Of a stretch of DNA of 26,408 nucleotides, positions 6,235-25,307 are shown piece after piece; position 1 is the stretch's first letter, and each line of letters begins with the position of its first letter. Source of the stretch: a virus; IMG/VR virus record IMGVR_UViG_3300025687_004890, positions 1 to 26,408 of that record. One strand, given 5' to 3'. The notes below the pieces were generated by a model. That model had not been told where the DNA came from and did no database searches. It saw only the letters and a list, made by a program, of their open reading frames with translations. The position numbers and the translations under genes are program-made.

Positions 6235-8918
6235 TGAGTTACGTTGACGCACTACACGATCGCGAACACGACCGCATTTTAGTTGTGGAGCGTGTTAACG
6301 GAAAGCGGGTTTACAATGAGTTTCCTGCTGAGTATGTGTTTTATTATCCTGATCGCAAGGGTAAATTTAAAACTATTTTTGATACTCCTGTTAGTAGATT
6401 TGCAACACGCAATTATAAGGAGTTTCAAAAAGAAGTTCGTATGCATAGCGGACAAGAACTGTTTGAAAGTGATTTTAAACCTGTATTTCGTTGTTTAGAA
6501 AACAACTATAAAGGTAAAAATTCACCTAAGCTACAAACAGCATTCTTTGACATTGAGGTGGATTTCCACCAAGAACGAGGATTTAGTCCACCAGAAGATC
6601 CATTTAATGCTATTACCGCAATTACTGTGTACTTAGATTGGCTTGAACAATGTATTACACTTGCTATTCCACCTAAAACGCTTACAATGGAACAAGCAAA
6701 ACATCAAGTACAAGAATTTGATAATACATTTTTGTTTGACAATGAACACGAAATGCTGTTAGCGTTTTTGGACATTATTCAAGACGCAGACATTTTAAGT
6801 GGCTGGAACTCAGAAGGCTTCGATATTCCATACACAATTAATCGTATTACACGTGTTCTGAGCAAAGATGACACAAGACGTTTTTGTTTGTGGGGGCAGT
6901 TACCAAAGAAGCGCACATTTGAACGCTATGGTGCAGAACACGAAACATATGATATTATTGGTCGTGTACATATGGACTATTTGCAACTATATCGCAAATA
7001 TACATATCACGAAATGCATTCGTATTCGTTGGATGCTATTGCAGAGTATGAACTTGGCGAACGCAAGGTACAATATGAAGGCACACTTGATCAGTTATAT
7101 AATCAGGACTTCCGTAAGTTCATTGATTATAACAGACAAGATACCATGATTCTCGGTAGGCTCGACGAAAAACTGCGTTTCCTAGACTTAGCAAACGAAC
7201 TTGCTCATGCAAATACTGTATTGCTACAAACAACTATGGGTGCGGTTGCCGTAACAGAACAAGCAATTATCAACGAAGCACATGAACGCGGACTAGTTGT
7301 TCCTGACCGTAAAAAACACGACAAAGAGGATACACAGGCCGCTGGTGCATACGTTGCGGTTCCAAAAAAAGGCATTCATCAATGGGTAGGTTCGGTAGAC
7401 ATTAACTCACTGTACCCGTCGGTTATTCGTGCATTAAACATGGCTCCAGAAACCATTGTAGGGCAACTGCGTCCGGTAATGACCGACAAACTTATTAAAG
7501 AACGCATGAGTGATAGAAAGGACGGTAACAGAATTGTCAAGGGCGATTCTTTTGCCGCAGCATGGGAAGGATTGTTTGGTACCATTGAGTATACTGCTGT
7601 AATGGAGCAGCGTGCAGACACAGAAATCACTATCGACTGGGTTAACGGTACTAGTACGGTACATTCAGCAAAAGACATCTGGCACCATGTATTTGATTCT
7701 AATAGTAACTTGTGTTTGAGTGCAAACGGCACAATCTTTACATACGAACGCGAAGGTGTTGTGCCTGGGTTGCTAAAGCGTTGGTATGCAGAGCGCAAAG
7801 AGCTTCAAGCAAAGAAAAAGGAAGCAACAACTAAAGAGGATATTGCATTCTGGGATAAGCGACAACTGGTTAAAAAGATTAACTTGAACTCGCTGTACGG
7901 TGCTATTCTTAACCCAGGTTGTAGATTCTTTGATAAACGTATTGGTCAGTCCACTACACTAACCGGACGTGCTATTGCGCAACATATGGATGCTTTTATT
8001 AATCAAGTACTTACAGGCGAATATAATCATGTAGGAAAATGTGTTGTATACGGCGATACAGACTCGTGTTACTTCTCTGCTTGGCCTGTTATGAAGGATA
8101 AGGTCGAGCGTGGCGAAATGGAATGGAACAAAGATATCGCTGTTAACTTATATGATGCTATTGGCGATGAAGTTAATAATAGTTTCCCACCGTTTGCATA
8201 CAGAGCATTCCATTGTCCAGAAGAATACGGAAACATTCTAGCATGCGGACGTGAAGTGGTTGCCGAATCAGGATTGTTTATTACCAAAAAGCGTTATGCG
8301 CTACTTGTATACGATCTCGAAGGCAAGCGTCTAGATGAGGACGGCAAGGACGGTAAAGTAAAAGCAATGGGATTAGATTTAAAGCGATCAGATACTCCTA
8401 AAGTAGTACAGGATTTCTTGTCAGATATTCTGAATAAAGTATTAAAAGGTGCTGATCGAGAATTAATTGTTAACGAAATTAAAGAATTTAAAAATGATTT
8501 TCATAATCGGCCTGCATGGGAAAAAGGTACACCAAAGCGTGTTAATAACTTAACCAAATATGGCAATATGATTAAACAAAAAGCCAAGGCAACGGTCCCA
8601 GGGCATGTTAGGGCTGCAATCAATTGGAATTATTTGCGTAATTTAAACGGTGATAACTACAGTATGGCAATTGTTGATGGACAGAAAACTATTGTATGTA
8701 AACTACGTCCTAATCCACTTGGATACACGTCAGTTGGATACCCTACTGACGAAAGCCGTTTGCCTAATTGGTTTAAAGAACTACCTTTTGACGACTCATT
8801 AATGGAATCTGTGATTATTGATCAAAAAGTTGAAAACTTATTAGGGGTTCTTAACTGGGATCTATCTGCATCAACTGATACCCAAAGCACATTCGAAACA
8901 TTATTTGAATTTTCATGA
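6234..8918 (+). CDS. 43: DNA polymerase, family B (T4 gp43-like)
   Basis: Replicative DNA polymerase with proofreading, 894 residues against 898 in T4 gp43. Exonuclease motifs: Exo I DIE at 106-108, Exo II NSEGFD at 192-197, Exo III YNRQD at 299-303. Polymerase motifs: A DINSLYPS at 389-396, B KKINLNSLYGA at 548-557, C YGDTDS at 606-611, and KKRY at 685-688. All catalytic acids are present. The C-terminal STFETLFEFS resembles the hydrophobic clamp-binding peptide at the end of T4 gp43. It is coupled by TAATG to the upstream DsbA-like gene and by ATGA to the downstream methyltransferase-like gene. The call is secure. Confidence 0.98.
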   Translation: MSYVDALHDREHDRILVVERVNGKRVYNEFPAEYVFYYPDRKGKFKTIFDTPVSRFATRNYKEFQKEVRMHSGQELFESDFKPVFRCLENNYKGKNSPKLQTAFFDIEVDFHQERGFSPPEDPFNAITAITVYLDWLEQCITLAIPPKTLTMEQAKHQVQEFDNTFLFDNEHEMLLAFLDIIQDADILSGWNSEGFDIPYTINRITRVLSKDDTRRFCLWGQLPKKRTFERYGAEHETYDIIGRVHMDYLQLYRKYTYHEMHSYSLDAIAEYELGERKVQYEGTLDQLYNQDFRKFIDYNRQDTMILGRLDEKLRFLDLANELAHANTVLLQTTMGAVAVTEQAIINEAHERGLVVPDRKKHDKEDTQAAGAYVAVPKKGIHQWVGSVDINSLYPSVIRALNMAPETIVGQLRPVMTDKLIKERMSDRKDGNRIVKGDSFAAAWEGLFGTIEYTAVMEQRADTEITIDWVNGTSTVHSAKDIWHHVFDSNSNLCLSANGTIFTYEREGVVPGLLKRWYAERKELQAKKKEATTKEDIAFWDKRQLVKKINLNSLYGAILNPGCRFFDKRIGQSTTLTGRAIAQHMDAFINQVLTGEYNHVGKCVVYGDTDSCYFSAWPVMKDKVERGEMEWNKDIAVNLYDAIGDEVNNSFPPFAYRAFHCPEEYGNILACGREVVAESGLFITKKRYALLVYDLEGKRLDEDGKDGKVKAMGLDLKRSDTPKVVQDFLSDILNKVLKGADRELIVNEIKEFKNDFHNRPAWEKGTPKRVNNLTKYGNMIKQKAKATVPGHVRAAINWNYLRNLNGDNYSMAIVDGQKTIVCKLRPNPLGYTSVGYPTDESRLPNWFKELPFDDSLMESVIIDQKVENLLGVLNWDLSASTDTQSTFETLFEFS

Positions 8919-9877
8919 AGCTAAGCGATTTAGTTACTTATCGATCAAAAGTTGACAAGTTATCAACTAACGAACTATCAAAGTTTGTACATTCTCAGGT
9001 TGATAAAATTGTCAATGATTTGCGTACTGACAATCCTGGCCTAGATCAAGAACAACATGATATCGAGCTCATTCGCGACAATTTGTTTGAATTACTGAAT
9101 AATTTTAACGAATCTCTCCACGTGTTTCAGGATCATCTGCAACAGTTAGTTCGCGAACAAGAAGTCCCGTATATTCAACAAAGCTATGCACAATATGACG
9201 AAATGTCAACCGATAGCCCTGGTTATATTCTCGATCGGCATTTGTTTCACACGTTAATATACAGAGAAAACATTAAAGAACTATTCGGAAGTAGAGTATC
9301 AAAATATGGCGATTGGAAATATGCAGGAATGTTTATACGTCCGCTTACTGGAGAATTTGTTGACTTAATGATTAACTGCGATCCGCTTTATATCGCCGAC
9401 GAGCATCGTGAATTACTTAACCCAGTTAAAAAACTATGGAGCGAGGATTTTCAAAATCGGTTACGTTATCAACTAATTTCTGAATCCGACGATATTATAT
9501 TTAAAAATATTCCAAGAAATCAACTTGGGTTTGTGGTCGCTATGAACTTTTTTAATTATCGACCACTGGATGTGATTAGACGCTATCTTCTAGAAATTCT
9601 AGAAATTTTGCGTCCTGGCGGAGTATTCATGTTTACCTACAATAATTGCGACTTGCCCGGAAGTGTTAAAAATGTAGAAAAAAGTATGTACTGTTACACT
9701 CCCGGGCGGTTGGTACAAACAATGGTCGAATCACTAGGGTTTGAAATCATTGATTCTGTTGATTTCACAGACACTAACGTTAGCTGGCTTGAAATTAAAA
9801 AGCCCGGGTCAATTAAGAGTCTGCGTGGCGGACAAGAATTGGCTAAAATTATTAAGACCCCAACAGATATTATCTAA
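8915..9877 (+). CDS. SAM methyltransferase-like protein with helical N-terminal domain
   Basis: In this 320-residue protein, residues 1-125 are helical and charged. From about 130 a class I methyltransferase pattern follows: YGDWKYAGMFIRPLTGEF in place of motif I, CDPLYIADEH as the acidic strand, a helical stretch, then ILRPGGVFMFTYNNCD (about 232-248) as the post-motif III strand. The glycine-rich loop is degraded (RPLTG instead of GPGTG), so SAM binding may be altered. I recall homologues in marine T4-like phages, generally annotated as hypothetical or methyltransferase. The substrate is unknown. Its position next to the polymerase fits a nucleic-acid role but does not prove one. Confidence 0.6.
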   Translation: MKLSDLVTYRSKVDKLSTNELSKFVHSQVDKIVNDLRTDNPGLDQEQHDIELIRDNLFELLNNFNESLHVFQDHLQQLVREQEVPYIQQSYAQYDEMSTDSPGYILDRHLFHTLIYRENIKELFGSRVSKYGDWKYAGMFIRPLTGEFVDLMINCDPLYIADEHRELLNPVKKLWSEDFQNRLRYQLISESDDIIFKNIPRNQLGFVVAMNFFNYRPLDVIRRYLLEILEILRPGGVFMFTYNNCDLPGSVKNVEKSMYCYTPGRLVQTMVESLGFEIIDSVDFTDTNVSWLEIKKPGSIKSLRGGQELAKIIKTPTDII

Positions 9878-9883
9878 ATAATA

Positions 9884-9912
9884 TTGACAAATAAATCTAA
9901 ATATCTTATAAT
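9884..9912 (+). promoter_or_regulatory. Consensus sigma70-type promoter with embedded CTAAATA
   Basis: TTGACA (9884-9889), 17 nt and TATAAT (9907-9912) are exact consensus. The spacer contains CTAAATA at 9897-9903 and another copy lies upstream at 9874-9880, so a late mode of use is conceivable. AGGAG at 9926-9930 serves ATG 9936. It drives the clamp/dpdA operon. Confidence 0.85.
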
Positions 9913-9935
9913 ACACAAATTATATAGGAGAAACT

Positions 9936-10667
9936 ATGAGAGATTATCTATTAGATCTAGTTGAACATACCTATGATCTAGGTTGTATCGATTTAATTAA
10001 AATTACAGGCGACGACAAAGAGACTAACATCGATGGTATTGCCGACGATCGTTCTGTAATTGTTCAAGGAAAGTTTGCTAAAGCTAACGCAGACTTTATG
10101 GGTACGTTTGGTATGCCTAATTTGAGCAAGCTAAAAATTCTAATTAATTTGGCAGAATATAAGGAAGATGCTCAAATTAACATTGTCAACAGTGACCGAA
10201 ATGGCGAAACTGTTCCAACTGGACTTCATTTTGAAAACAAAGCAGGCGACTTTAAGAACGACTACCGTTTTATGGTTAAGGAAATTATCGACGATAAGCT
10301 CAAGGCAGTAACTTTTAAAGGCGCAAATTGGGATATCGAATTTGAACCTACAATGGCAGCTATTCAACGCTTGAAGATGATGGCACAGGCCAACTCAGAA
10401 GAAGCGACATTCCAGGTTAAAGTAGAAGATAGTAACCTGAAGTTTTACTTTGGTGATCATTCCACTCATGCTGGTAACTTTGTATTTCAAACTGACGTAA
10501 CGAGTACTCTTAAACATACTTGGAGTTATCCAGTAAGTCAAGTTATTCGTATCTTGGATTTAACTGGCGATAAAACCATGCGTATTTCTGATCAGGGCGT
10601 TGCTGAAATTACTGTTAATTCAGGTATTGCAACTTACACTTATCTATTGCCAGCACAATCTAAGTAA
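9936..10667 (+). CDS. Sliding clamp candidate (gp45-like)
   Basis: The 243-residue protein (T4 gp45 has 228) consists of alternating beta strands and short helices. It includes VIVQGKFAKANADFMGTFGMPNLSKLKILINL, equivalent to the strand-helix that begins each clamp domain, and a second domain with TFQVKVEDSNLKFYFG and a YxYLLP end. A clamp holds the polymerase on DNA and, in T4, activates late transcription. Sequence similarity to T4 gp45 is weak; the call depends on the domain pattern, the length and the position just after DNA polymerase under its own promoter. It overlaps the following dpdA-like gene by TAATG. Confidence 0.65.
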   Translation: MRDYLLDLVEHTYDLGCIDLIKITGDDKETNIDGIADDRSVIVQGKFAKANADFMGTFGMPNLSKLKILINLAEYKEDAQINIVNSDRNGETVPTGLHFENKAGDFKNDYRFMVKEIIDDKLKAVTFKGANWDIEFEPTMAAIQRLKMMAQANSEEATFQVKVEDSNLKFYFGDHSTHAGNFVFQTDVTSTLKHTWSYPVSQVIRILDLTGDKTMRISDQGVAEITVNSGIATYTYLLPAQSK

Positions 10668-12184
10668 TGAACTCAGACCTAACCGCAGCACAACACGATT
10701 ACGCAATTTATTTGCCAGCAATCAGTAACTTTTATGCTACTTACATCGGTAAGCAGCAGCACGAGGAGTACGTTGAGCAAAGTCGAATGCCGTCAGGCAT
10801 TCCTGAGATGGAAATGCTCAACTTTTTTAACCCTAACAAAGGATTATTCCACTACCAGTGGGGTCTATACTCAGCAGGGCATGCTAATTTAGATTTAAAT
10901 AAGGATGTTCCTGCTGAGAATATGATTCGTAAGCGAGGCAAGCATACTACATTGCTTGCTGACTCGGGTGGATTCCAGATTGCTAAAGGCGTGTGGGCAG
11001 CGGATTGGAAGAATATGGACGCTCGAGCACAGAAGTATAGATCAACTGTGCTCGAGTGGCTATGTAAAATTTCTGATTATTCAATGACACTTGATATTCC
11101 AACTTGGATTGTTAATAATCCAGATTCTGTTGCTAAGACTAATATTCATACTGTACAGGATGCAATTGACGTTACCCGCAACAATCACGAATACTTTATG
11201 GAACACTCGTTTAATGACGCTAAGTTCTTGAATGTATTACAGGGTTCTAACCACGACGACGCAGACACGTGGTATGAAATCATGAAGGAATATAACGATC
11301 CGTCAAAGCACGAAAAGTTCTTCCGCGGGTGGGCAATGGGTGGTGCTAACATGGCTGATCCACACTTGGCACTTAAACGTATTGTTACTATTATTCATGA
11401 TGGATTACTTGAACAAGGTAAGCACGATTGGATGCACTTCTTGGGAACATCCAAAATGGAATGGGCAGTTATCCTTACAGATATTCAACGTGCTGTGCGC
11501 AAGTACCACAATCCTAACTTTACTATTAGTTTTGATAGTGCTAGCCCATTCCTTGCTACTGCTAATGGACAGATTTACACATATTCCACCTCTGAGAATC
11601 ACGGACGTTGGACATATAAAATGGAACCAACTGCTGATAACAAAGGCTACGCACGTGATACACGGTCGTTCCGTGATGCAGTTTTAGCAGACGGTATTCA
11701 CGACATTTTCGATGACAGTCCTATTAGTGCTAATTTAATGATCAAGGATGTATGCACATATGCGCCAGGTGACTTAAATAAGATTGGCAAAGAAGGTAAA
11801 ACTTCGTGGGATTCGTTCTCATACACACTAATGATGGGCCATAATGTTTGGCACCATATTAACGCGGTGCAACAAGCAAACCGTGTATTTGATTCAGGGA
11901 TTACTCCCGCTAACTTGGTAAACGATTATGATGGCATCACTTCTCGCGATATTATCAACGCAGTCTTTGCTGAGCCAGATTACGACAACAGACTTGCTAT
12001 TCTTGATCATTACAGCAAGTTTTGGACTGGCGTTCCTGGCGCTCGTGGTATGGGCGGTAAAAAAGCTGTAAGTGCTGCTCGTCAATTTAATGCATTGTTT
12101 GAAGTTGCTGATACTACACCAGCGAGCAACGACGAATTAGATGAAACAAAATTGGATAAACTAGAAAATGAAGTACTCGTTTAA
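10667..12184 (+). CDS. dpdA: TGT-superfamily DNA base exchanger, DpdA-like
   Basis: This 505-residue enzyme has a tRNA-guanine transglycosylase TIM-barrel pattern. D99-SGGFQ at 99-104 is the hallmark substrate loop, LDIPTW at 142-147 contains the base-binding Asp (D143), LQGSN at 191-195 matches the QG loop, GWAMGGANMA at 221-230 matches GxAIGG, and ISFDSASPF has D290 as the likely nucleophile. The C-x-C-x2-C...H zinc site of tRNA enzymes is not visible, which fits the phage DpdA branch that swaps guanine in DNA for a 7-deazaguanine such as preQ0. FolE and QueD homologues lie in the same window. A tRNA substrate cannot be excluded from sequence. Operon partners overlap on both sides. Confidence 0.85.
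   Translation: MNSDLTAAQHDYAIYLPAISNFYATYIGKQQHEEYVEQSRMPSGIPEMEMLNFFNPNKGLFHYQWGLYSAGHANLDLNKDVPAENMIRKRGKHTTLLADSGGFQIAKGVWAADWKNMDARAQKYRSTVLEWLCKISDYSMTLDIPTWIVNNPDSVAKTNIHTVQDAIDVTRNNHEYFMEHSFNDAKFLNVLQGSNHDDADTWYEIMKEYNDPSKHEKFFRGWAMGGANMADPHLALKRIVTIIHDGLLEQGKHDWMHFLGTSKMEWAVILTDIQRAVRKYHNPNFTISFDSASPFLATANGQIYTYSTSENHGRWTYKMEPTADNKGYARDTRSFRDAVLADGIHDIFDDSPISANLMIKDVCTYAPGDLNKIGKEGKTSWDSFSYTLMMGHNVWHHINAVQQANRVFDSGITPANLVNDYDGITSRDIINAVFAEPDYDNRLAILDHYSKFWTGVPGARGMGGKKAVSAARQFNALFEVADTTPASNDELDETKLDKLENEVLV
11022..11056 (+). repeat. Perfect 11-bp inverted repeat inside dpdA
   Basis: CTCGAGCACAG (11022-11032) and CTGTGCTCGAG (11046-11056) are exact reverse complements around a 13-nt loop. 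This could form a strong mRNA hairpin within coding sequence. There is no T tract, so it is not a terminator. Role unknown; it may slow ribosomes or protect the transcript. Confidence 0.7.
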
Positions 12185-12683
12185 TAATTGGAATAACCAA
12201 TTTGGAACCATTCCAGTAACATGGAATAAATTAGATTACACAGAACGCACAACATGGCGGAACCACGGAAACAAAAACAAAGGGTTCACTACATATGATG
12301 ATAATCGTAAAATTTATGATAAAAATATAGGTGTGTTGGTTCCTAACGAATTACTACCGGTGTTTGATGTCCGAGACTACTTTGATTTAGATAATCTGGT
12401 TTTTGACCTAAGTAAATATACCCCGGGCATGATTTTACCATGGCATCACGACGACTATCCTACGTATGCAAAAAATATGGGGGTGCAGGATTTAGATAGC
12501 ATTGTAAGAATTATTGTATTCTTGCATGATCCTGCTCCTGGCCAACAGTTATGGATTAAAGATCGATACTGCACCGGAGCAGCTGGAAGCTGGTTTGCGT
12601 GGACTGGCAAAACCAAACACATGGCTGCAAATTTAAGCGAAGTGGATAGATACGTTATTCAACTAACAGGTATTAACAAATAA
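12168..12683 (+). CDS. 2OG-Fe(II) oxygenase-like protein
   Basis: The 171-residue compact double-stranded beta-helix candidate has H93-H-D95 as the HxD metal pair within PGMILPWHHDDYPTY, H151 as the distal His and R161 ten residues later as the 2-oxoglutarate anchor. GSWFAWTGKTKHMAANLSE is the typical strand around the distal His. The family hydroxylates proteins, nucleic acids or small molecules. The gene overlaps the end of dpdA by 17 nt and the amidinotransferase by TAATG, so its product is made together with theirs. A base-modifying role is inferred from that; peptide hydroxylation or an aspartyl/asparaginyl hydroxylase-like role is the alternative. Confidence 0.75.
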   Translation: MKYSFNNWNNQFGTIPVTWNKLDYTERTTWRNHGNKNKGFTTYDDNRKIYDKNIGVLVPNELLPVFDVRDYFDLDNLVFDLSKYTPGMILPWHHDDYPTYAKNMGVQDLDSIVRIIVFLHDPAPGQQLWIKDRYCTGAAGSWFAWTGKTKHMAANLSEVDRYVIQLTGINK

Positions 12684-13768
12684 TGTATTCTGTTTATAAT
12701 CATTGGGATAGGTTAGATACCTGTATCGTAGGAAAAACTTATCCACCAGAATTCTATTCATGGATTAAAGACAGCAATACTCGCACCCGGTTTGAGCAAT
12801 TAGCAGAAGAAACCGAAGAAGATTATCAGAAATTAATTAACCTATTAGAAAAATTTAACGTTAACGTCCGGCGTCCGGAGTTTCCTGAAGACCTTAATGA
12901 ACTTTGGCTTGAGGATAAGTGGGTGCAACCGCCTACTGCGCCTCGTGACTATTTCATAATGATTCATGATAAATTTTGGATTCCAAATATTCCAAATCTA
13001 CATCATGCACAAGGGCTGTTTGAAAGAAAGCACAGTGAGCTTACAGGTAACGAACGTAATCTTGCGTGGGAAAAGTTTCAAATTGCAGATCAATTACACT
13101 TAGATAAAAAACTAAGTTTTTATAATCACATTTATGACGAAATTCGCGCAAGCGGAACAGAAATTGTATACACCGACCAGGACTATATCAACGGTTGTTT
13201 TGTAAGTCGGTTAAGCGATCGTTTGTATTTTGCTACACAAACAGCGCACGACTCAGAAGAAAAGATATTAGAAACAGTTGACAAACTATTTCCAAACACT
13301 TATAATAAAGTTGTTCCTGCAGAAGGGCACGGAGATGCGGTATATTGTCCTGTCACAGAAGGATTGATTATTAGTATCAATGATATGCCAACTTATGCAG
13401 AATCATTCCCAGACTGGGAGGTAGTGTATTTGCCAGACTCAAACTTTGCGTATAACGATAAGTTTAAAGTAGCAATGACTAAAAACAAAGGTCGTTGGTT
13501 TGTACCAGGGTTTGAAAAAGATCCTAACATGATGCACATGGTAGATCATTACTTTGACGAATGGGTAGGACAAGCAAGTGAAACACAGTTCCAGGTTAAT
13601 ATTTTAATTATTGATCCAAAGAACATTGTTGTAAGCTCACATAATGATCAAGTTGAAAAAGCGTGTGCAAAGTATGGTATAACCGTTCACGTAGTACCTT
13701 TTAGACACAAATACTTCTGGGACGCAGGAACACATTGTATTACAAATGATATTAACAGGGTGACGTAA
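12683..13768 (+). CDS. Amidinotransferase-like protein (guanidino-modifying fold)
   Basis: This 361-residue member of the GME superfamily (glycine/inosamine amidinotransferase, arginine deiminase) has EGHGDAVYCP with catalytic His216 and Asp218, and FWDAGTHCIT with the nucleophilic Cys at 352. LDTCIVGKTYPPEFY at the N terminus matches the first beta-alpha unit (VxVGxxyp). These enzymes transfer an amidino group from arginine through a Cys-amidino intermediate, or hydrolyse guanidino groups. The acceptor cannot be read from sequence. Coupled to the 2OG oxygenase and close to dpdA, it could act on an aminated deazaguanine; a small-molecule acceptor or host-metabolism role is equally possible. 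Confidence 0.82.
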   Translation: MYSVYNHWDRLDTCIVGKTYPPEFYSWIKDSNTRTRFEQLAEETEEDYQKLINLLEKFNVNVRRPEFPEDLNELWLEDKWVQPPTAPRDYFIMIHDKFWIPNIPNLHHAQGLFERKHSELTGNERNLAWEKFQIADQLHLDKKLSFYNHIYDEIRASGTEIVYTDQDYINGCFVSRLSDRLYFATQTAHDSEEKILETVDKLFPNTYNKVVPAEGHGDAVYCPVTEGLIISINDMPTYAESFPDWEVVYLPDSNFAYNDKFKVAMTKNKGRWFVPGFEKDPNMMHMVDHYFDEWVGQASETQFQVNILIIDPKNIVVSSHNDQVEKACAKYGITVHVVPFRHKYFWDAGTHCITNDINRVT

Positions 13769-13770
13769 AT

Positions 13771-13959
13771 ATGCCTACAGTAGCAGAAATACAAAAACAA
13801 TTAACAATAGTTAGTAAAAAACTAGCAGAAGCAAAAGATGTACAACAACAAGACGAGTTGCGTAAGAAAAAAACTGCACTTGCACTTGATTTAAAAAGAG
13901 CTCAACAACGAGCATGGAATAACCGCAACGATAGTATAGACTGGGGCGATGGCTACTAA
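13771..13959 (+). CDS. Small coiled-coil hypothetical
   Basis: The 62-residue protein starts two nucleotides after the amidinotransferase stop. Residues 5-50 form one long, Lys/Gln/Ala-rich helix with heptad spacing (IQKQLTIVSKKLAEAK, then QDELRKKKTALALDLKRAQQ), probably a coiled coil. The C terminus is DSIDWGDGY. The next gene begins inside its last four codons. I do not recognise the family; an oligomerisation or adaptor role is plausible. Confidence 0.65.
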   Translation: MPTVAEIQKQLTIVSKKLAEAKDVQQQDELRKKKTALALDLKRAQQRAWNNRNDSIDWGDGY

Positions 13960-14455
13960 ATCAGCACACGACAATTTTAAAGGGCAGTACTTTACCGGTA
14001 CTGAAGTAGAACAAACAGCTATGTATGGTAAGACCACACTTTTCGTAGTAGGTGAACCAGAATTATATAGCATTCAACAACAACTAGATGCAAATCCAGA
14101 TATTCAGCACATTTACTTTGGTGCTAATATGAGTTTTAACGCAAAGAAACTTCATCAATGGGAAGCAGTTATTATGGACTTCCTGCGTGCAGACTATTGG
14201 TGCACACTAGACTTTGACGTTCAAAATGTAGAAGATATTCTGGAAACCGAACTGGTAGAATGGCATCGTTTTATTCCAATGATTAGTGTTAAACTTCCAT
14301 ACATTGACCAACTTGGTTATAATGCGGTACTCAAACTAGACGATACAGACTTTAAAGCATCTAATCCTGGTGTTTGGTGTCATCGAGTACGTGATTTGAT
14401 GACCACCAACAGTTTTACAGATTGGTCTAAGTATGAAGAAGACGAGCCGGTATAA
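13949..14455 (+). CDS. Conserved phage hypothetical, alpha/beta
   Basis: The 168-residue protein overlaps its upstream neighbour by 11 nt and the downstream gene by TAATG. The pattern is alternating beta/alpha (TTLFVVGEPELYSIQQQL, DIQHIYFGANMSFN, HQWEAVIMDFL, YWCTLDFDVQNVEDIL), suggesting a small Rossmann-like fold. The C terminus FTDWSKYEEDEPV resembles a conserved acidic tail that I recall from marine phage hypotheticals. There are no catalytic motifs I can name. Confidence 0.72.
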   Translation: MATKSAHDNFKGQYFTGTEVEQTAMYGKTTLFVVGEPELYSIQQQLDANPDIQHIYFGANMSFNAKKLHQWEAVIMDFLRADYWCTLDFDVQNVEDILETELVEWHRFIPMISVKLPYIDQLGYNAVLKLDDTDFKASNPGVWCHRVRDLMTTNSFTDWSKYEEDEPV

Positions 14456-14910
14456 TGGAAGAACAAATTAAACAAGCACAACTAGAAACTGCTAATCGCA
14501 TTATGCAGAAAGCACCTCGTATGATTTGGGTAACGCTACAAAAAGAAGGTGTACATCGTTATCCTGGTGCTGATACTGATCCTAAACTCGCAACAGGCGA
14601 CTGGGACGATGTAAGTTTCCTAGGTGTTCCTCACAGACATATCTTTCACTTTAAGGTATGGATTGAAGTATTCCACAATGATCGTGATATTGAGTTTATC
14701 CAATTTAAACGTTGGATCACTAGACTATACGATCAAAGTGTGTTACAGTTAGACTATAAATCATGTGAAATGATAGCAGATGATTTATATGCTGAAATCG
14801 CTACTAAGTATCCAGGTCGTGCCGTGTGGATCTCAGTTAGCGAAGATGACGAAAACGGCGCATTTATTCAATACAACACAACACAACCAGTAACATTACT
14901 GAAAATTTAA
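14455..14910 (+). CDS. Conserved phage protein, possible QueD-like T-fold
   Basis: The 151-residue protein can be laid along the QueD/PTPS pattern: EGVHRYP (H34) in place of FxAAHRLP, PHRHIFHFKVWIEV (H60-x-H62) in place of LHGHSFxVxLEI, DIEFIQFKRWI in place of WIIDFxELK, SCEMIADDLYAEI in place of TSExLAxWIW, and VWISVSEDDENGA in place of the VxVxET strand. The catalytic Cys that precedes HGH in QueD is absent. So the fold and a metal site may be shared while the chemistry differs. The alignment is mine, by eye. Homologues of unknown function occur in marine T4-like phages. It overlaps its upstream neighbour by TAATG. Confidence 0.7.
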   Translation: MEEQIKQAQLETANRIMQKAPRMIWVTLQKEGVHRYPGADTDPKLATGDWDDVSFLGVPHRHIFHFKVWIEVFHNDRDIEFIQFKRWITRLYDQSVLQLDYKSCEMIADDLYAEIATKYPGRAVWISVSEDDENGAFIQYNTTQPVTLLKI

Positions 14911-14922
14911 AAGAGAAAAACA

Positions 14923-15132
14923 ATGTCTAAGAAGACTTATAATAATCCTCGTGTATCCCAGGTATTCAATGACTTAGAGTCTTATCTGGATTTCTGTCGC
15001 TCATATGGATATCGTTTTAACGAAAGTGATTTATACAATATGCAATCGTATCCATTCCAGCAATTCAATAAATTCCGTCAAGGAAAGAACTTCAAGGACC
15101 AATGGGCAGTTGACGCTCGCCGTATTCGATAA
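14923..15132 (+). CDS. Small conserved phage hypothetical
   Basis: The 69-residue basic protein is preceded by AAGAGA at a workable distance. The sequence RVSQVFNDLESYLDFCRSYGYRFNESDLYN, then FNKFRQGKNFKDQWAVDARRI, resembles a small protein often seen in marine T4-like phages, of unknown function. It is predicted helical with a basic C-terminal half. It overlaps the next gene by TAATG. Confidence 0.72.
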   Translation: MSKKTYNNPRVSQVFNDLESYLDFCRSYGYRFNESDLYNMQSYPFQQFNKFRQGKNFKDQWAVDARRIR

Positions 15133-15749
15133 TGGAACAACAAGCGTTTGATGCATTCAGGAATTTTTTTAAATCACCAATTTACCGTTCGCCAAACAGT
15201 AAATTAGTGTATATTCCTGTATTAAAAAATGCCAGTTCATATTATGACTGGGTATTTTCACAGGCTAATTGGACAGAGATACAGTACAAAGATATACACC
15301 CAGACGAAGATTATCTTTTTGGGTTTATATCTGAACCAATGACAAGATATGTTAAAGGTGTTGTACAAGACATGATATCACACGGATCGGAAAATATTCT
15401 ATGCAATATGTTAGGTGTGAAATTTTGGGAATTTGCTCCTATTTTAGGAATTCACAGCGTACCAATGACTGTCATATACCCCGAGTTATATAATAAAATT
15501 AACTGGATTCCTCTCGACCACCGTAAAATAAACGCAAAAGAAGTTTTACAAGACATTCTGAATACACACGGAGAACAATCAGTTCAACTTCCGCAGGAAA
15601 GAATGAATTCAGCGGCACCGTGGCAAAAACGATTGTACGATGATATTGGACCAAAGTTTTATGGAGCCGGCCATACTTGGTTTAAAATACTATATCCGGA
15701 TGAATATCCATTATATCAAAAGTCTATAGATCAATATCTTAATAATTAA
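15132..15749 (+). CDS. Sulfotransferase-like protein (tentative)
   Basis: In this 205-residue protein, KLVYIPVLKNASSYYDWVF near residue 25 resembles the sulfotransferase 5'-PAPS loop (hxYIPxxKxAGSS). FGFISEPMTRYVKGVVQDM at about 73-92 resembles the FxRDPxxRxxS 3'-phosphate segment. The C terminus YDDIGPKFYGAGHTWFKILYPDEYPLYQ recalls the YxxDxxLY end of such enzymes. If active it would transfer sulfate from PAPS to a sugar or small acceptor. It stands just upstream of a glycosyltransferase, epimerase and aminotransferase, which fits glycan decoration. The match is partial. Confidence 0.5.
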   Translation: MEQQAFDAFRNFFKSPIYRSPNSKLVYIPVLKNASSYYDWVFSQANWTEIQYKDIHPDEDYLFGFISEPMTRYVKGVVQDMISHGSENILCNMLGVKFWEFAPILGIHSVPMTVIYPELYNKINWIPLDHRKINAKEVLQDILNTHGEQSVQLPQERMNSAAPWQKRLYDDIGPKFYGAGHTWFKILYPDEYPLYQKSIDQYLNN

Positions 15750-15750
15750 C

Positions 15751-16128
15751 ATGTTTTACATTATACATAATACCGGCAATACCGCCGGCGGGACACAGCT
15801 AGCAGAGCAATTAAGAAATATTTACGGCGAGACACATGTAGCAGATGTTTGTGCTGATGATACTTCTGTCCCTGATAGCAGTGATGCTGGACATTATTGG
15901 ACGGCGGCACAAGTATTAATGAAATTATGTGATATGTATGCCGACGATGTCATTAAAACAGGCGATACAATTATCTTTACATGGTTCCATGATCCTAACG
16001 CTAGACTTGTAAATGACCTAAATATCAGCTATAATGTACAACCTAACATGTACTGGTATACATTCGAAGGCACTGGTGTTTGGGAGTTAAGCTCTCACAA
16101 ATTTATGAAACTTGAGGAATTAGCGTAA
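15751..16128 (+). CDS. Hypothetical 125-residue protein beside the glycosyltransferase
   Basis: It begins one nucleotide after the previous stop and overlaps the glycosyltransferase by TAATG. MFYIIHNTGNTAGGTQLAEQLRN looks like a beta strand, a Gly-rich turn and a helix, as at the start of a nucleotide-sugar or Rossmann-type domain, but the protein is too short for a full GT-B half. GDTIIFTWFHDPNARL is another strand-turn. I do not recognise the family. A partner or accessory to the glycosyltransferase is suggested only by coupling. Confidence 0.68.
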   Translation: MFYIIHNTGNTAGGTQLAEQLRNIYGETHVADVCADDTSVPDSSDAGHYWTAAQVLMKLCDMYADDVIKTGDTIIFTWFHDPNARLVNDLNISYNVQPNMYWYTFEGTGVWELSSHKFMKLEELA

Positions 16129-17312
16129 TGCGTAAATTATTTTATATGGGTTTGGAAAGTTATCAAGCTCGTTACACATATCAATTAACAGACTGGAACG
16201 AACGTGTATTTAAACGTCGCGGTATTGATTATGTAATTGTTCCAGGCGAAACTATTGACGATACTAAAGCAATTTCCGTAGGGCAGGTACTCGACGCACA
16301 CGGACGTTCATACTTTGGTATGAGCCAAATGATGAATCTTGTACAGATGATGCGTAACGGCGAGTGCAGCGGCGAGGATGCAGTCTTCTTTGAAGATATG
16401 TTCCAACCCGGTATTGAAAGTTTGCCGTATATCATGTGCCAGATTCCAGAGAAGGATCGTCCGCAGATTTATGTGCGTTGTTTAGCACAAGCAATCGATC
16501 CAGATGACTTTGTACACGTTTGGGGCATGAGTAAATGGATGAGTCTTTACGAACAAATGGTAAATGAAATTCCAAATGTTCATGTTCTTTCATCAAATGA
16601 GGAAATGGTAGCACATCAGCGTATTGCTAACTGGTCAGCACCCATTTACAATATTTCAGGACTTGCGTTCGGTAAGGAAGAAGTACAAAGTCGTGTAGAA
16701 AGTATTAAACCATTTGCAGAACGTGCAAATCGTGTAGTATTTGCAGCACGTTGGGATCAGGAAAAGCAGCCAGATTTCTTTATGGATATCGTAGAAGAAC
16801 TCTCAGGACTGGGTACAGAATTTGCTGTGCTACAAGGTGGTCCATTACGTTCTAACAATCCTAAGTATATTGAACGTGCAAAGGATCTTGAACGTCAAGG
16901 TAAACTGTGCATCTACGAAAATCTTTCAAAGAATGATTATTATGCTATCCTAAACGACAGCCGTGTACTGTTTAACTGTGCATTGCAGGATTGGGTATCT
17001 AACACAGTGAGCGAAGCAGACGCACTAGGGTGTAATGTAGTATATCCTGCTTACCGCAGTTTCCCAGAAACATTTGCCAATGATTATACTCGCTTGTATA
17101 CTCCGTGGAGCAAAGCCGATGCATTGGCTAAGATTGCAGCAGGCCTAGAAAAGCCAAGCTCAAACATGGGCAAGATTTCAGATTGGACAGATGGCACCGT
17201 GGACCGTATTGTAGATATTATCGAAGGTAAGGGCGAGCAATGGAACCGAGCAGGCATCCGCTATCGCGATCATGTTGCAGAATCAAAATATGAAGTTAAA
17301 GAACACTGGTAA
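16128..17312 (+). CDS. GT-B glycosyltransferase
   Basis: In this 394-residue protein the C-terminal half matches glycosyltransferase group 1/GT4. RVVFAARWDQEKQPDFFMDIVEEL (about 202-225) is the inter-domain start of the donor domain. LSKNDYYAILNDSRVLFNCALQDWVSNTVSEADALGCNVVYPAY holds the acidic residue and Gly-rich strand that bind the sugar nucleotide. The N-terminal half is the less conserved acceptor domain. No membrane segment is visible. The next gene is a GalE-like epimerase that could supply its donor. The acceptor (modified DNA, virion protein or host surface glycan) is unknown. Confidence 0.82.
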   Translation: MRKLFYMGLESYQARYTYQLTDWNERVFKRRGIDYVIVPGETIDDTKAISVGQVLDAHGRSYFGMSQMMNLVQMMRNGECSGEDAVFFEDMFQPGIESLPYIMCQIPEKDRPQIYVRCLAQAIDPDDFVHVWGMSKWMSLYEQMVNEIPNVHVLSSNEEMVAHQRIANWSAPIYNISGLAFGKEEVQSRVESIKPFAERANRVVFAARWDQEKQPDFFMDIVEELSGLGTEFAVLQGGPLRSNNPKYIERAKDLERQGKLCIYENLSKNDYYAILNDSRVLFNCALQDWVSNTVSEADALGCNVVYPAYRSFPETFANDYTRLYTPWSKADALAKIAAGLEKPSSNMGKISDWTDGTVDRIVDIIEGKGEQWNRAGIRYRDHVAESKYEVKEHW

Positions 17313-17313
17313 T

Positions 17314-18303
17314 ATGGATCTTGAAGGTTTAACTATTTGCGTTACTGGTGGCGCTGGTTTTGTTGGAAGCCACACCGCAAAAACACTTAAAGCAGCAGGT
17401 GCTCGTGTAATTGTTCTTGACCGTAGACGCTTGCCACTACCAGACACCATTTATGATCAGTTCTTGCACGATGATTTTGCTGAAGAACGTGTACTAGATT
17501 ATTTACAAGGTATGAACGTTGACGGGTTTGTTCACTGTGCAGGAACAAGCCTAGTAGGTCCTTCCATTAAAAACCCAAGCGAATACTATAATAACAATGT
17601 TTTAAAGAACATTCAGTTCTTAGATCACTTAAAGGAATGGAAACGTAAACCGTTCATTGTATTTTCAAGTTCAGCAGCAACATATGGTAATCCAGTGAAC
17701 ATTCCTATTAAAGAAACAGACCCGCAGTTACCGATTAACCCTTACGGCGAAACTAAACTTATTATGGAAAAATTATTGCGTGACTATGATCGTGCGTATA
17801 ATATTCGCAGTTATAGTTTACGATATTTTAATGCCTGCGGAGCGGATGTATGGGGTACAGAACTTGGTCCAGAAGACGGTGATACTCATATTATTCCTCG
17901 ATTGTTTACCAATAATCCTTTCCACCTTTTTGGCGATGATTACAATACGCCCGATGGCACTTGCGTCAGGGATTATATTCACGTTAGCGACCTTGCATTA
18001 GCACATTGTAAAGCTGTAGAAGCATTGTCCGGAAGTGAAATTAATTTTCCGCACGGGCGACCAAGTGCATGTTATAACTTAGGAACAAATACAGGTATTA
18101 GTAATCGAGAGCTTATCGAAGCATACAAAAAATATGTAGGAGAACTTACAGTTATCACAGGACCACGAAGAGAAGGTGATCCAGACGAATTAGTAGCCGA
18201 CGGCAAACAATTTCAACTTGATCACCACTGGAAACCTGCATATAGCGATCTAGAGACCATTATTACTAGTACAAAAGCATGGTACGATAAGCATGGCGTT
18301 TGA
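17314..18303 (+). CDS. NAD-dependent sugar epimerase (GalE-like)
   Basis: This 329-residue extended SDR has GGAGFVGSH at 12-20 as the NAD-binding loop, SSSAATYG at 118-125 with the catalytic Ser/Thr, and YGETK with Y144 and K148. YFNACGAD...HIIPRLF is typical of UDP-glucose 4-epimerase relatives. I chose ATG 17314 rather than the in-frame ATG at 17272, because the latter adds 14 non-family residues and runs 41 nt into the glycosyltransferase gene. It probably converts an NDP-hexose for the adjacent glycosyltransferase. The exact sugar is not determined, since related dehydratases share these motifs. Confidence 0.88.
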   Translation: MDLEGLTICVTGGAGFVGSHTAKTLKAAGARVIVLDRRRLPLPDTIYDQFLHDDFAEERVLDYLQGMNVDGFVHCAGTSLVGPSIKNPSEYYNNNVLKNIQFLDHLKEWKRKPFIVFSSSAATYGNPVNIPIKETDPQLPINPYGETKLIMEKLLRDYDRAYNIRSYSLRYFNACGADVWGTELGPEDGDTHIIPRLFTNNPFHLFGDDYNTPDGTCVRDYIHVSDLALAHCKAVEALSGSEINFPHGRPSACYNLGTNTGISNRELIEAYKKYVGELTVITGPRREGDPDELVADGKQFQLDHHWKPAYSDLETIITSTKAWYDKHGV

Positions 18304-18889
18304 TGCAATTTTAAAATTTGAACAAGCTCTGGCATCATACACAGGTGCTCCGTATGCTATCATGACTGATTGTTGCACCCATGCCATTGAATTATGTTTA
18401 CGTTACGAACAACCTAAGATCGTAGTGCTTACGCCTTTTACTTATTTAAGCGTACCAATGATAATGCACAAACTAGACATTCCATATGAGTATATTAACG
18501 ACAATGCGTACTGGATCGGCGAATACAGGCTAATTGGATCGCGTATTTGGGATAGTGCCAGAAGACTTGAAAAAGACATGTACGAACCCAACACAATGAA
18601 ATGTTTATCTTTTGGGTATTCTAAACCTTTAGAAATTGGGCACGGTGGTGCTATATTGTTAGACGACGAAAAAGCATACAACAAACTAATTCGTATGCGT
18701 TATGATGGTCGCGACCTAAATATTAGTCCATGGTCAGAACAAGTAACCTTTGAAGTTGGATATCATTATAGGCCAACAATTGAGGATGCTAACCGTGGGT
18801 TAGCATTACTAGAAGAATATAAAAAGAAAGATGATACTGATCCTGTATATGTGCAATATCCTGATTGTCGTCTAATTAATATTGAATAA
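18293..18889 (+). CDS. Compact DegT/StrS-like PLP aminotransferase
   Basis: The protein has 198 residues, about half the usual 370. YTGAPYAIMTDCCTHAIELCL matches the N-terminal G/T-rich substrate loop, TPFTYLSVPMIM the next strand-helix, IWDSARRLEKDMY with D87 the pyridine-N contact, and LSFGYSKPLEIGHGGAILLDD contains K111 at the PLP Schiff-base position. The C-terminal small domain is largely missing. The core looks intact, so a minimal enzyme or a PLP-binding relic are both possible. It overlaps the epimerase by 11 nt, suggesting amino-sugar formation. Short versions occur in other marine phages as I recall, so this is probably not a recent truncation. Confidence 0.72.
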   Translation: MAFDAILKFEQALASYTGAPYAIMTDCCTHAIELCLRYEQPKIVVLTPFTYLSVPMIMHKLDIPYEYINDNAYWIGEYRLIGSRIWDSARRLEKDMYEPNTMKCLSFGYSKPLEIGHGGAILLDDEKAYNKLIRMRYDGRDLNISPWSEQVTFEVGYHYRPTIEDANRGLALLEEYKKKDDTDPVYVQYPDCRLINIE

Positions 18890-18964: not shown

Positions 18965-19648
18965 ATGAAAAAGTACGAAGAAATTATTGAACGCTGCAAA
19001 TCTGCAGACAAACGTTACTGGGCAGGTGATAATATTTCACGTCTAATCCAATCAGGTGAAAAAGAACAACTAATCGATGAAGCAACAGAAGCATTTGAAA
19101 CTGTACTTGATACATTGATTATTGATAGACACAACGATCCTAACTCAAAAGGCACGGCACGCCGTCTTGCTAAAATGTACTTTAATGAGATTATGGCAGG
19201 ACGTTATGAACACGCTCCGGACGCAACAGCATTTCCAAATGACTCAGAAGATCGTTATGAAGGTATGCTTGTTGTTCGTTCAGAACTTAAATCAATGTGT
19301 TCACACCATCACCAGCCAGTAACTGGCACAGCATATATTGGCATTATCGCTGCTGAAAAGTTAATTGGATTGAGCAAGTATACACGTATTGCACAGTGGT
19401 GCGCACGTCGTGGTACATTGCAAGAAGAACTTGCTAATGACATTGCTCGCGAGATTAAGAAAGCAACTGGCGCTAAGGACTTAGGTGTTTACATTCAAGC
19501 CACGCATGGTTGTTGCGAGAATCGCGGCATTATGGCACACAGTAGTCTTACACAGACAACTGTCCTCGAAGGCTCATTTAAGACTGATCCAGGTACTAAG
19601 AAAGAGTTCTTTGATAACATTAAACTACAGCAAGAATTTGCTTGTTAA
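18965..19648 (+). CDS. folE: GTP cyclohydrolase I
   Basis: The 227-residue enzyme (E. coli FolE has 222) converts GTP to 7,8-dihydroneopterin triphosphate, the first step to tetrahydrofolate and to 7-deazaguanines. Zinc ligands are visible: C112 and H115 in SMCSHHHQPVTG, and C183 in ATHGCC. GLSKYTRI at 135-142 and QEELANDIA at 153-161 match the conserved core, and SKGTARRLAKMY at 61-72 corresponds to the DTPxRVAKMY motif. The gene has its own consensus promoter and is followed 9 nt later by a QueD homologue, pointing to the preQ0 route and DNA modification with the DpdA-like protein upstream. Confidence 0.95.
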   Translation: MKKYEEIIERCKSADKRYWAGDNISRLIQSGEKEQLIDEATEAFETVLDTLIIDRHNDPNSKGTARRLAKMYFNEIMAGRYEHAPDATAFPNDSEDRYEGMLVVRSELKSMCSHHHQPVTGTAYIGIIAAEKLIGLSKYTRIAQWCARRGTLQEELANDIAREIKKATGAKDLGVYIQATHGCCENRGIMAHSSLTQTTVLEGSFKTDPGTKKEFFDNIKLQQEFAC

Positions 19649-19657
19649 GGAGAAAAC

Positions 19658-20245
19658 ATGGGCGTTAAGGTAAAATCAACAAAAGTATATAGATATCTAC
19701 CTTGCGGTCACGCACAGTTCTTTGATCGTGAACCAGACGGTAGTCCAGGTGAATGTGCAAGTGTACACGGGTATGATCGTTCAGTAGAACTAACATTTGC
19801 CGGTGATATTGATGATATGGGCTGGATTGTTCCGTTTGGTGAACTAAAAGATGTTAAAACTTTTATCGAATACTATTTTGATCACGTAACTGTGCTGCCA
19901 GCAAATGATCCTAGGCTGGATCAGATTACAGCGGAAATGAAACAACCCGGTGGCATTTTGGGTACAGTTCGTGTACTGCCAAGCGGTGTAAGCATGGAAA
20001 TGAGTAGTTTGTTTATTTGGGAATGGGTCAATCAATATATCTTTAGTGTAACTGAAGGTCGTTGTTATGTAGAACGAGTGCGTGTTTACGAGCATGATCG
20101 CAATGATGCAATGATTGAAGTTGATCGTGAAACTGCTATCAAAGATGCAACACGCAAACTAGCAGCAGGCGAGGATATTCTTCCACTAATCAGTGAATGG
20201 TACTGGGAAGCACCTAAAGCTGCCGTAGCACGCATTGAATCATAA
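19658..20245 (+). CDS. queD: QueD/PTPS-like 6-carboxytetrahydropterin synthase homologue
   Basis: The 195-residue protein has a clean AAGGAG at 5 nt. H18 in LPCGHAQFF, C33 and H37 in ECASVHGY, WIVPFGELK at 56-64, FDH at 74-76 and VRVYEHD with E146 follow the QueD order (first His, catalytic Cys, HGH, DFxELK, DH, E). The third metal His of HGH is Tyr39 here. I recall HGY in a family of marine phage and cyanobacterial homologues, so it is a subfamily feature rather than a lesion. It would take the FolE product to 6-carboxytetrahydropterin for preQ0 synthesis. Activity with the altered metal site is unproven. Confidence 0.8.
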   Translation: MGVKVKSTKVYRYLPCGHAQFFDREPDGSPGECASVHGYDRSVELTFAGDIDDMGWIVPFGELKDVKTFIEYYFDHVTVLPANDPRLDQITAEMKQPGGILGTVRVLPSGVSMEMSSLFIWEWVNQYIFSVTEGRCYVERVRVYEHDRNDAMIEVDRETAIKDATRKLAAGEDILPLISEWYWEAPKAAVARIES

Positions 20246-25025: not shown

Positions 25026-25307
25026 ATGCGAGCAACAGATTTAATTCGTCAACTACTAGATTTAATTGACAACATTGAGTCCACTAAAGGACCTGATGTT
25101 TCGGTTAGTGTTACCAATATCACACAGGAAGTCAACGACGAACCAGAATACGCCAACGAACCAAACGAGCAGTATGCTCCGGTTAGTGCGGTTACAACTG
25201 ACATGGGCGGCGGTCCTAACAAGCCCAAACATCCAGCAGATATCAGAGGCGATTCACAGAGCCTGTATCCTGCTGCACAGTGGAACTCTAGTAAGGATTA
25301 TCGCTGA
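25026..25307 (+). CDS. Small virion-type hypothetical with MRATDLI start
   Basis: The 93-residue protein begins MRATDLIRQLLDLIDNIE, an amphipathic helix sharing the MRA-x-DLI opening with the protein at 814. The usual L/I-x-E cut site is less obvious here; IDNIE at 14-18 has no L/I at the right spacing. The rest is Pro/Asn/Glu-rich and probably disordered, ending HPADIRGDSQSLYPAAQWN, which resembles conserved C-termini of marine phage hypotheticals. The late promoter-like element and structural neighbours suggest a virion protein. Confidence 0.75.
   Translation: MRATDLIRQLLDLIDNIESTKGPDVSVSVTNITQEVNDEPEYANEPNEQYAPVSAVTTDMGGGPNKPKHPADIRGDSQSLYPAAQWNSSKDYR

Follow-up and report, generated by a model that had tools for sequence, protein, structure and literature searches.

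A viral dpdA locus probably combines a QueC-less deazaguanine system with an unrelated, inserted oxygenase-amidinotransferase cassette

The window, by which we mean the whole 26,408-nt stretch analyzed here (IMG/VR record IMGVR_UViG_3300025687_004890, positions 1 to 26,408), contains three overlapping open reading frames on the plus strand, at 10667-12184 (505 aa), 12168-12683 (171 aa), and 12683-13768 (361 aa). The original prediction held that these genes overlap, and the coordinates bear this out: the first two share 17 nt, and the second junction reads TAATG. Because 14 of the 31 neighboring gene pairs in the window overlap, as judged from the listed gene coordinates, short overlaps are ordinary here and do not by themselves point to a joint pathway. 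The label "clamp" for the gene at 9936-10667 was dropped; it had been guessed from position, and the sole match is phrog_12062, a family of unknown function.

The first frame of the trio (10667-12184) encodes a putative dpdA-like DNA-guanine transglycosylase, the core of the system. A sequence search of solved structures with this protein returned no match. When its AlphaFold model (pLDDT 88.3) is compared with the PDB by Foldseek, all 13 matches at E ≤ 1e-3 are tRNA-guanine transglycosylases (TGT), and VIA-align superimposes it on TGT with a Z of 19.7 and an rmsd of 4.2 (298 aligned). D99 (within DSGGFQ), D143, and D290, the residues singled out in the original prediction, are Asp in every one of 80 aligned sequences (the window's own among them); we take them to be the catalytic aspartates of the TGT family. 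In the phage DpdA/DpdA2 system described by Hutinet 2019 (PMC6884629), a TGT-type transglycosylase carries out base exchange in DNA. Unlike the enzymes covered there, the window protein forms a separate subfamily with a weak tie to the DpdA2 PHROG: it matches phrog_10773 weakly (0.0053), the family to which DpdA2 of BUCT-ZZ01 belongs (1.7e-94), and a profile comparison of that DpdA2 with the window dpdA family gives a weak link (19% probability, E 0.0013).

Genes for deazaguanine synthesis accompany the transglycosylase. As predicted, the window contains FolE, GTP cyclohydrolase I (18965-19648, plus strand; Pfam GTP_cyclohydroI, 1.3e-39; 21 of the 21 regions compared), and a QueD homologue (19658-20245, plus strand; Pfam PTPS, 2.7e-15; TIGR03367 QueD, 7.6e-09, below cut-off); QueE lies downstream in relatives, at a position that falls beyond the window's end. 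Among the 27 records examined, the 24 with dpdA all contain FolE, with QueD and QueE in 22 each (the QueE query missed the annotated QueE of Phosso), and none of the three genes was found in the 3 dpdA-negative records. Taken with the Foldseek matches, these counts support a DpdA-type transglycosylase of TGT fold with a deazaguanine pathway, and this part of the earlier interpretation stands. The combination of a TGT-type transglycosylase with FolE, QueD, and QueE (the last in relatives) resembles the DpdA/DpdA2 systems of PMC6884629 and differs from them in QueC, for which a clear match (PF06508) occurs in only 1 of the 24 dpdA-positive records (Vibrio 2.275.O, which is also the only one with QueF); these records may be fragments, in which, as in the window itself, the absence of a gene proves nothing for that virus. 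With one QueC query, none was detected in the best 80 dpdA loci, the best 80 glycosyltransferase loci, or the 21 regions, and, among carriers of the glycosyltransferase family described below, QueC was likewise missing from those tested, PA5oct, Phosso, and the long contigs. Five weak QueC-like matches to PF06508 were seen (G005, G009, G018, G020, and G022); those in G009, G018, and G020 look NadE-like by motif and were not counted as QueC. An aminomethyl group needs QueC and QueF, and with both nearly absent no amine is expected to receive an amidino group, so the aminomethyl-deazaguanine substrate assumed in the original prediction loses its footing. Since dpdA almost always occurs without QueC or QueF, the predicted base is 7-carboxy-7-deazaguanine or plain 7-deazaguanine.

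The gene order of the dpdA block is conserved over the window and 20 further regions. FolE, QueD, QueE, a QueD-fold paralogue, and a GT-B glycosyltransferase travel with dpdA, which is itself seen in 18 of the 21 because region cuts left it outside (G010, G011, G014, G019, and G020 are cut with dpdA wholly or partly outside). The block includes a conserved gene of unknown function (13949-14455, plus strand; 18 of 21 regions) and, directly after it, the QueD-fold paralogue (14455-14910, plus strand; phrog_17812), which is present in 26 phage records and sits in a QueC-less FolE/QueD/QueE cluster in 19 of 21 regions. Profile comparison of this gene with the phages' QueD reached only 72% probability, so a fold search was used instead; with a model of pLDDT 90.6, all 18 Foldseek matches at E ≤ 1e-3 are PTPS/QueD proteins. 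We regard it as a candidate for a step acting on 7-carboxy-7-deazaguanine, and its place in such a cluster is the one expected of a DpdL-type CDG decarboxylase. Cellulophaga phage phi19:2 has a relative of this gene within its own FolE/QueD/QueE cluster.

The dpdA-linked glycosyltransferase is of the GT-B (GT4-type) class (16128-17312, plus strand; Pfam Glycos_transf_1, 4.2e-06; 19 of 21 regions), and dpdA is found in 74 of the loci of its best 80 relatives. Its profile matches the dpdA-adjacent genes of PA5oct, ACP17, and X1, and 15 of the 19 phage records with a relative carry it inside the deazaguanine cluster (PA5oct/Paride, Phosso, ACP17, X1). A further relative sits two genes from DpdA2 in the deazaguanine cluster of BUCT-ZZ01, and the family thus stands beside two DpdA subfamilies. 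Also in the block are a nucleotide-sugar epimerase (17272-18303, plus strand; Pfam Epimerase, 1.7e-42), present in 76 of the best 80 glycosyltransferase loci, and a short DegT/DnrJ/EryC1-type protein of the sugar aminotransferase family (18293-18889, plus strand; Pfam, 1e-13). The best 80 dpdA loci hold DegT in 44 cases and epimerase in 54, but neither is specific to dpdA, as the 73 oxygenase loci without dpdA have epimerase in 17 and DegT in 45. Compared with the DpdA/DpdA2 systems of PMC6884629, the paralogue and the glycosyltransferase are additions. PA5oct shares the dpdA subfamily (38% identity), QueE, QueD, FolE, the QueD-fold paralogue, and the glycosyltransferase, and differs in that no amidinotransferase or oxygenase of the window families was found in it; the available text of the paper on its deazaguanine system mentions neither the glycosyltransferase nor the missing QueC (PMC7824862).

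The second frame of the trio (12168-12683) encodes a 2OG-Fe(II) oxygenase-like protein in which H93-x-D95...H151 is invariant across 12 relatives and R161 is kept across 5. The window protein has no match in Pfam and no significant one among solved structures (best PDB profile match, 0.13), and two relatives match PF05118 weakly (0.008 and 0.016, below cut-off). The HxD...H iron ligands agree with the original assignment as an oxygenase. The third frame (12683-13768) is confirmed as an AGAT/HsvA-like amidinotransferase: phmmer against solved amidinotransferases finds HsvA (1.3e-05) and L-arginine:glycine amidinotransferase (about 4e-04), and C352 and H216, invariant in 8 sequences, align with the Cys and His of HsvA that we take to be catalytic. 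It has 524 viral relatives, of which the best 80 occupy varied gene positions, and a radical SAM family is present in 13 of 92 loci. Taken by itself, the amidinotransferase seldom has DegT nearby (7 of 83 loci), an observation that speaks against a glycan role for the pair.

Comparison with a 95%-identical relative (L002) reveals an empty site, the same locus with both of these genes cleanly absent. Positions 5508-8359 of the relative correspond to window 9314-12165 at 80.9% and positions 8366-9744 to window 13764-15134 at 84.1%, leaving 12166-13763 as the missing stretch. Among the dpdA loci read, both genes lie beside dpdA only in the window's near-identical sibling contig. The best 80 dpdA loci contain the amidinotransferase in 11 cases and the oxygenase in 10, anywhere in the locus, while among the 79 oxygenase-family loci an amidinotransferase-family gene occurs in 62 (24 of them with the two directly side by side) and dpdA in 6 (only the sibling has it adjacent), with DegT in 49 and UDP-sugar dehydrogenase in 37; these are counts of loci and not of independent phages, because the best-80 lists, drawn from larger sets, overlap (L008/L154, L037/L125, and L075/L127 each stand for one contig, and G002/G003 look near-identical). 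An oxygenase-family gene directly adjoins dpdA in three more loci (L050, L140, and G019), always upstream, an observation that counts against reading the two genes as a separate cassette. The pair recurs in a 17.9-kb locus that has no dpdA (L152), at 62% and 60% identity and again sharing 1 nt; there it sits between what we read as gp47-like and gp46-like (recombination) genes. Cyanophage S-SCSM2R (PQ898602) carries a diverged pair among glycosyltransferase genes; the oxygenase, of the window family, again overlaps the amidinotransferase, but the latter is only 21% identical over 196 columns, and no relative of the window DpdA or of DpdA2 was found in that record. Of 14 oxygenase-positive records, 6 have the two genes no more than 25 nt apart, and in the 5 of these that carry dpdA it is about 70-246 kb away. 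Pair and dpdA thus occur largely independently in both directions, the survey outcome that the original prediction named as refuting it, and with the empty site this leaves the proposal that oxygenase and amidinotransferase work jointly with dpdA unsupported. Most likely, the two genes form a separate cassette that has entered between dpdA and the gene that normally follows it.

We therefore consider it likely that a QueC-less deazaguanine system and an unrelated inserted cassette lie side by side in the window. FolE and QueD in the window, with QueE downstream as in relatives, would make 7-carboxy-7-deazaguanine, which the QueD-fold paralogue probably processes, with decarboxylation the likeliest reaction; the dpdA product would then swap guanine in phage DNA for that 7-deazaguanine base, probably as an escape from restriction. 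A pathway that stops at the QueE product for want of QueC would fit dCDG or decarboxylated dDG, as in the dCDG/dDG phages with DpdL reportedly described by Cui in 2023, in which we know of no glycosyltransferase. The pair is found at unrelated sites, often among sugar-biosynthesis and glycosyltransferase genes, making a glycan-related substrate the most likely one; the cassette would hydroxylate and amidinate a sugar or some other small compound destined for a glycan, and not a base in DNA. DegT and epimerase are common in these phages, so finding them near the pair is a weak argument for such a role.

A serious alternative, to which we give somewhat less than an even chance, is that glycosyltransferase and epimerase form a surface-glycan cluster that shares only its neighborhood with dpdA and to which the pair belongs. 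The frequency of epimerase and DegT in oxygenase loci without dpdA fits this, as does the placement of 4 of the 19 relatives of the PA5oct glycosyltransferase outside the deazaguanine-cluster groups, the one inspected lying among amino-sugar genes where no deazaguanine gene is shown; in the available text of PMC7824862, jumbo-phage glycosyltransferase clusters are interpreted as outer-polysaccharide genes. However, the GT4 profile has 0 matches in the 144 dpdA-free loci of the amidinotransferase or oxygenase, and in PA5oct, ACP17, X1, and Phosso relatives of the glycosyltransferase directly adjoin DpdA or the QueD paralogue, besides accompanying two DpdA subfamilies. That the pair instead serves to build or modify a small molecule (a guanidino amino acid, for instance) and not a glycan seems unlikely to us: the amidinotransferase matches both AGAT, whose substrate is glycine, and HsvA, a secondary-metabolite enzyme, and its neighbors are varied, radical SAM among them, but such pairs often lie amid glycosyltransferase and nucleotide-sugar genes. 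Least probable by far is the pathway first proposed, in which a dpdA-inserted deazaguanine is hydroxylated by the oxygenase and amidinated by the amidinotransferase to give a new base, for although the three genes follow one another with overlaps both in the window and in the sibling contig, active-site residues are kept in all three proteins, and preQ1 could still come from the host, the empty site, the pair's independence of dpdA, and a predicted base without an amine argue strongly against it.

Within the favored reading of a deazaguanine system beside a separate cassette, the glycosyltransferase suggests a further and rather doubtful possibility, that these phages glycosylate 7-deazaguanine in their own DNA, the dpdA-linked GT-B enzyme, fed by the nucleotide-sugar genes, adding sugar to the carboxy-derived base, much as T4 glycosylates hydroxymethylcytosine. 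Should decarboxylation be all that the QueD-fold protein does, the base would lack an obvious sugar handle; a way out would be a different reaction by this protein, or attachment of the sugar to the carboxylate or elsewhere on the base. A limited literature search, which is no proof of novelty, found no report of an amidinotransferase acting on phage DNA, of glycosylated deazaguanine DNA, or of dpdA with a glycosyltransferase.

These findings remove a likely false lead, in that the window dpdA probably does not have its tailoring enzymes in the amidinotransferase and oxygenase. In phage DNA, guanine is found with a growing set of groups at position 7, and a sugar at this position, if the idea is true, would unite two kinds of DNA armor, deazaguanines and glycosylated bases.

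The three-gene arrangement in the window, an IMG/VR viral fragment of 26,408 bases with no completeness estimate in its record, is real: the open reading frames of dpdA (10667-12184), the oxygenase (12168-12683) and the amidinotransferase (12683-13768), their overlaps, and residues D99, D143 and D290 were as originally described when checked on the sequence and by alignment. Overlap is ordinary here, with 14 of 31 neighboring pairs overlapping by the listed gene coordinates. The dpdA product has no match in Pfam or NCBIfam and a single weak one in PHROGs (phrog_10773, 0.0053). A Foldseek search of its AlphaFold model (pLDDT 88.3, built from 22 sequences) against the PDB returned 13 matches at E ≤ 1e-3, all tRNA-guanine transglycosylases, and VIA-align places it on T. 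maritima TGT with Z 19.7 and rmsd 4.2 over 298 aligned positions. Thirteen members of the family are present in phage records, 11 of them from PA5oct/Paride-type Pseudomonas records (about 38% identity) and the others from Vibrio phage 2.275.O, where 7-cyano-7-deazaguanine reductase, a vitamin transporter, a queuosine-biosynthesis protein and GTP cyclohydrolase I are annotated near dpdA, and Sinorhizobium phage Phosso. A deazaguanine synthesis and incorporation system has already been ascribed to PA5oct (PMC7824862). The dpdA matches in locus L013 (7980-9518, record G008) and in record G017 of locus L005 contain in-frame stops, perhaps reflecting assembly error or decay.

The original prediction held that the oxygenase and amidinotransferase act with DpdA to make a new base, which is unlikely given that the pair is absent from the corresponding site of a close relative and is mostly found without dpdA. 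That relative, locus L002, has a dpdA 95% identical to the window's and aligns to window positions 9314-12165 (80.9%) and again to 13764-15134 (84.1%); because the alignment jumps from 12165 to 13764 with only six bases between the matching stretches, the pair is cleanly absent. In locus L008, the 13771 gene comes immediately after dpdA, and an amidinotransferase lies upstream of the polymerase. The proposed survey of dpdA neighborhoods points the same way: in the best 80 loci of at least 599 dpdA relatives in viral contigs, the polymerase and the 9936 gene occur in all 80 and the 8915 gene in 79, but the amidinotransferase in only 11 and the oxygenase in 10 (12 by profile). Among loci read, the window's order recurs only in contig 3300025655_003364, whose pair genes are both 100% identical to those of the window.

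Seen from the pair itself, dpdA is present in 12 of 83 amidinotransferase loci (the best 80 of 524 viral relatives plus three oxygenase loci), where by our own reading of the sequences the neighbors include recombination, single-strand-binding and other genes. The oxygenase has 168 relatives; in the 79 distinct loci kept, an amidinotransferase-family gene occurs in 62 (directly adjacent in 24), a DegT relative in 49, an unnamed 389-aa family in 46, a UDP-sugar dehydrogenase in 37 and dpdA in 6, adjacent only in the sibling contig. At locus L152, gp47-like and gp46-like genes flank a version of the pair that is 62% and 60% identical to the window's and keeps its 1-nt overlap. In S-SCSM2R, a cultured Synechococcus phage, a relative of the oxygenase overlaps a gene annotated as an inosamine amidinotransferase; glycosyltransferases, a radical SAM gene and a 3-amino-5-hydroxybenzoate synthase surround them. 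Not everything fits so simple a pattern: L050, L140 and G019 each have an oxygenase-family gene immediately upstream of dpdA. Two further families were seen in 92 amidinotransferase loci: a 325-aa family (L154, 11161-12138) in 34, directly adjacent in 18, and a radical SAM family directly adjacent in 8.

What does accompany dpdA is a block reaching to QueE. In 21 regions (the window and 20 others, some cut before dpdA), FolE occurs in 21; the QueD-fold paralogue, QueD, QueE, epimerase and glycosyltransferase each in 19; dpdA, affected by that cut, and the 13949 gene in 18; DegT and a second glycosyltransferase-like protein in 17; phosphoribosyltransferase in 14; the oxygenase in 5 and the amidinotransferase in 3. 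A cluster represented by a 1327-aa protein (21012-24995) with a lipoprotein-like start, threonine-rich repeats and then a subtilase (S8) domain (Pfam 9.2e-37) is present in 10 of 21 dpdA regions. Elsewhere in the window, the adjacent proteins at 81-812 and 814-2232 are probably paralogues, since by eye one similar stretch is common to both, and 25307-25735 gives a weak, below-cutoff ubiquitin-like match (5.3e-04).

We searched 27 whole records, namely PA5oct, 2.275.O, Phosso, S-SCSM2R and 23 long IMG/VR records picked by length from dpdA and amidinotransferase matches. FolE was found in the same 24 as dpdA, QueD in 22 and QueE in 22 (single PA5oct query); the amidinotransferase family occurs in 21 and the oxygenase family in 14. 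The three dpdA-negative records carry the amidinotransferase, and no FolE, QueD or QueE was found in them. Five weak QueC matches were obtained, and the three read were rejected as NadE-like: L259 988-1743, L260 7259-8071 and L261 863-1738, which we take to be NAD synthetases by their motif; those of L259 and L260 adjoin QueE. With QueF in one record and a clear QueC in one (2.275.O), the aminomethyl acceptor required by the original prediction is not phage-encoded in the records searched. QueE converts CPH4 to 7-carboxy-7-deazaguanine, and QueC takes this to preQ0 (PMC13329287). Since QueC is nearly absent and acts after QueE, the phage-encoded route is predicted from gene content to stop at the carboxy base; the host could complete it.

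The QueD-fold paralogue (14455-14910; model pLDDT 90.6) resembles only PTPS or QueD structures (18 of 18 Foldseek matches at E ≤ 1e-3) and VIA-align superposes it on E. coli QueD at Z 10.4 and rmsd 2.5 over 109 positions. H34, H60 and H62 are invariant in its family, as is a Leu four positions before H60. In QueD this position holds the catalytic Cys, so the paralogue probably catalyzes another reaction. The family occurs in 26 phage records, and the clusters opened (ACP17, X1, phi19:2, RHph_I1_18, Ahp1, Phosso and Paride) each contain FolE, QueD or QueE, with FolE alone named in Ahp1. Cui et al. (2023) reportedly described dCDG, dDG and the CDG decarboxylase DpdL.

The glycosyltransferase (16128-17312) co-occurs closely with dpdA. 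In the best 80 loci among the matches listed for its relatives in viral contigs, the epimerase occurs in 76, the QueD paralogue in 75, dpdA in 74 and FolE in 60; the six without dpdA all have FolE and all start shortly before the glycosyltransferase. Synechococcus phage BUCT-ZZ01 encodes a 71.5% identical enzyme at the end of the order QueE, phosphoribosyltransferase, short gene, QueD, FolE, other glycosyltransferase, DpdA2, QueD paralogue. Profile relatives gp167 of PA5oct (182 bits) and gp124 of ACP17 (145) overlap the DpdA gene, X1 WEM34306 (127) ends 1 base before it, and the relative in Phosso has a 4-nt overlap with the QueD paralogue; in the QueC-bearing 2.275.O, the gene after dpdA scores -2. 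Neither the glycosyltransferase profile nor the QueD paralogue has a match in 144 amidinotransferase/oxygenase loci lacking dpdA, where epimerase and DegT are nonetheless found. Searching with the X1 enzyme gave 16 matching phage records, all from the groups of PA5oct/Paride, Phosso, ACP17 and X1; searching with that of PA5oct gave 19, of which 15 are from these groups and the others are three PhiXhv phages and Ep032. PhiXhv-12, the only one of these four opened, has its relative within an amino-sugar cluster (L371, 4735-7969), beside an annotated fructose-6-phosphate aminotransferase and deacetylase; the 14.8 kb displayed contain no deazaguanine gene, and the cluster may serve to modify another base or a glycan.

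Overall, the system belongs to the DpdA kind, is QueC-less and has a glycosyltransferase tightly linked to it, and this linkage makes a glycosylated deazaguanine in the DNA of these phages a fair but unproven guess.
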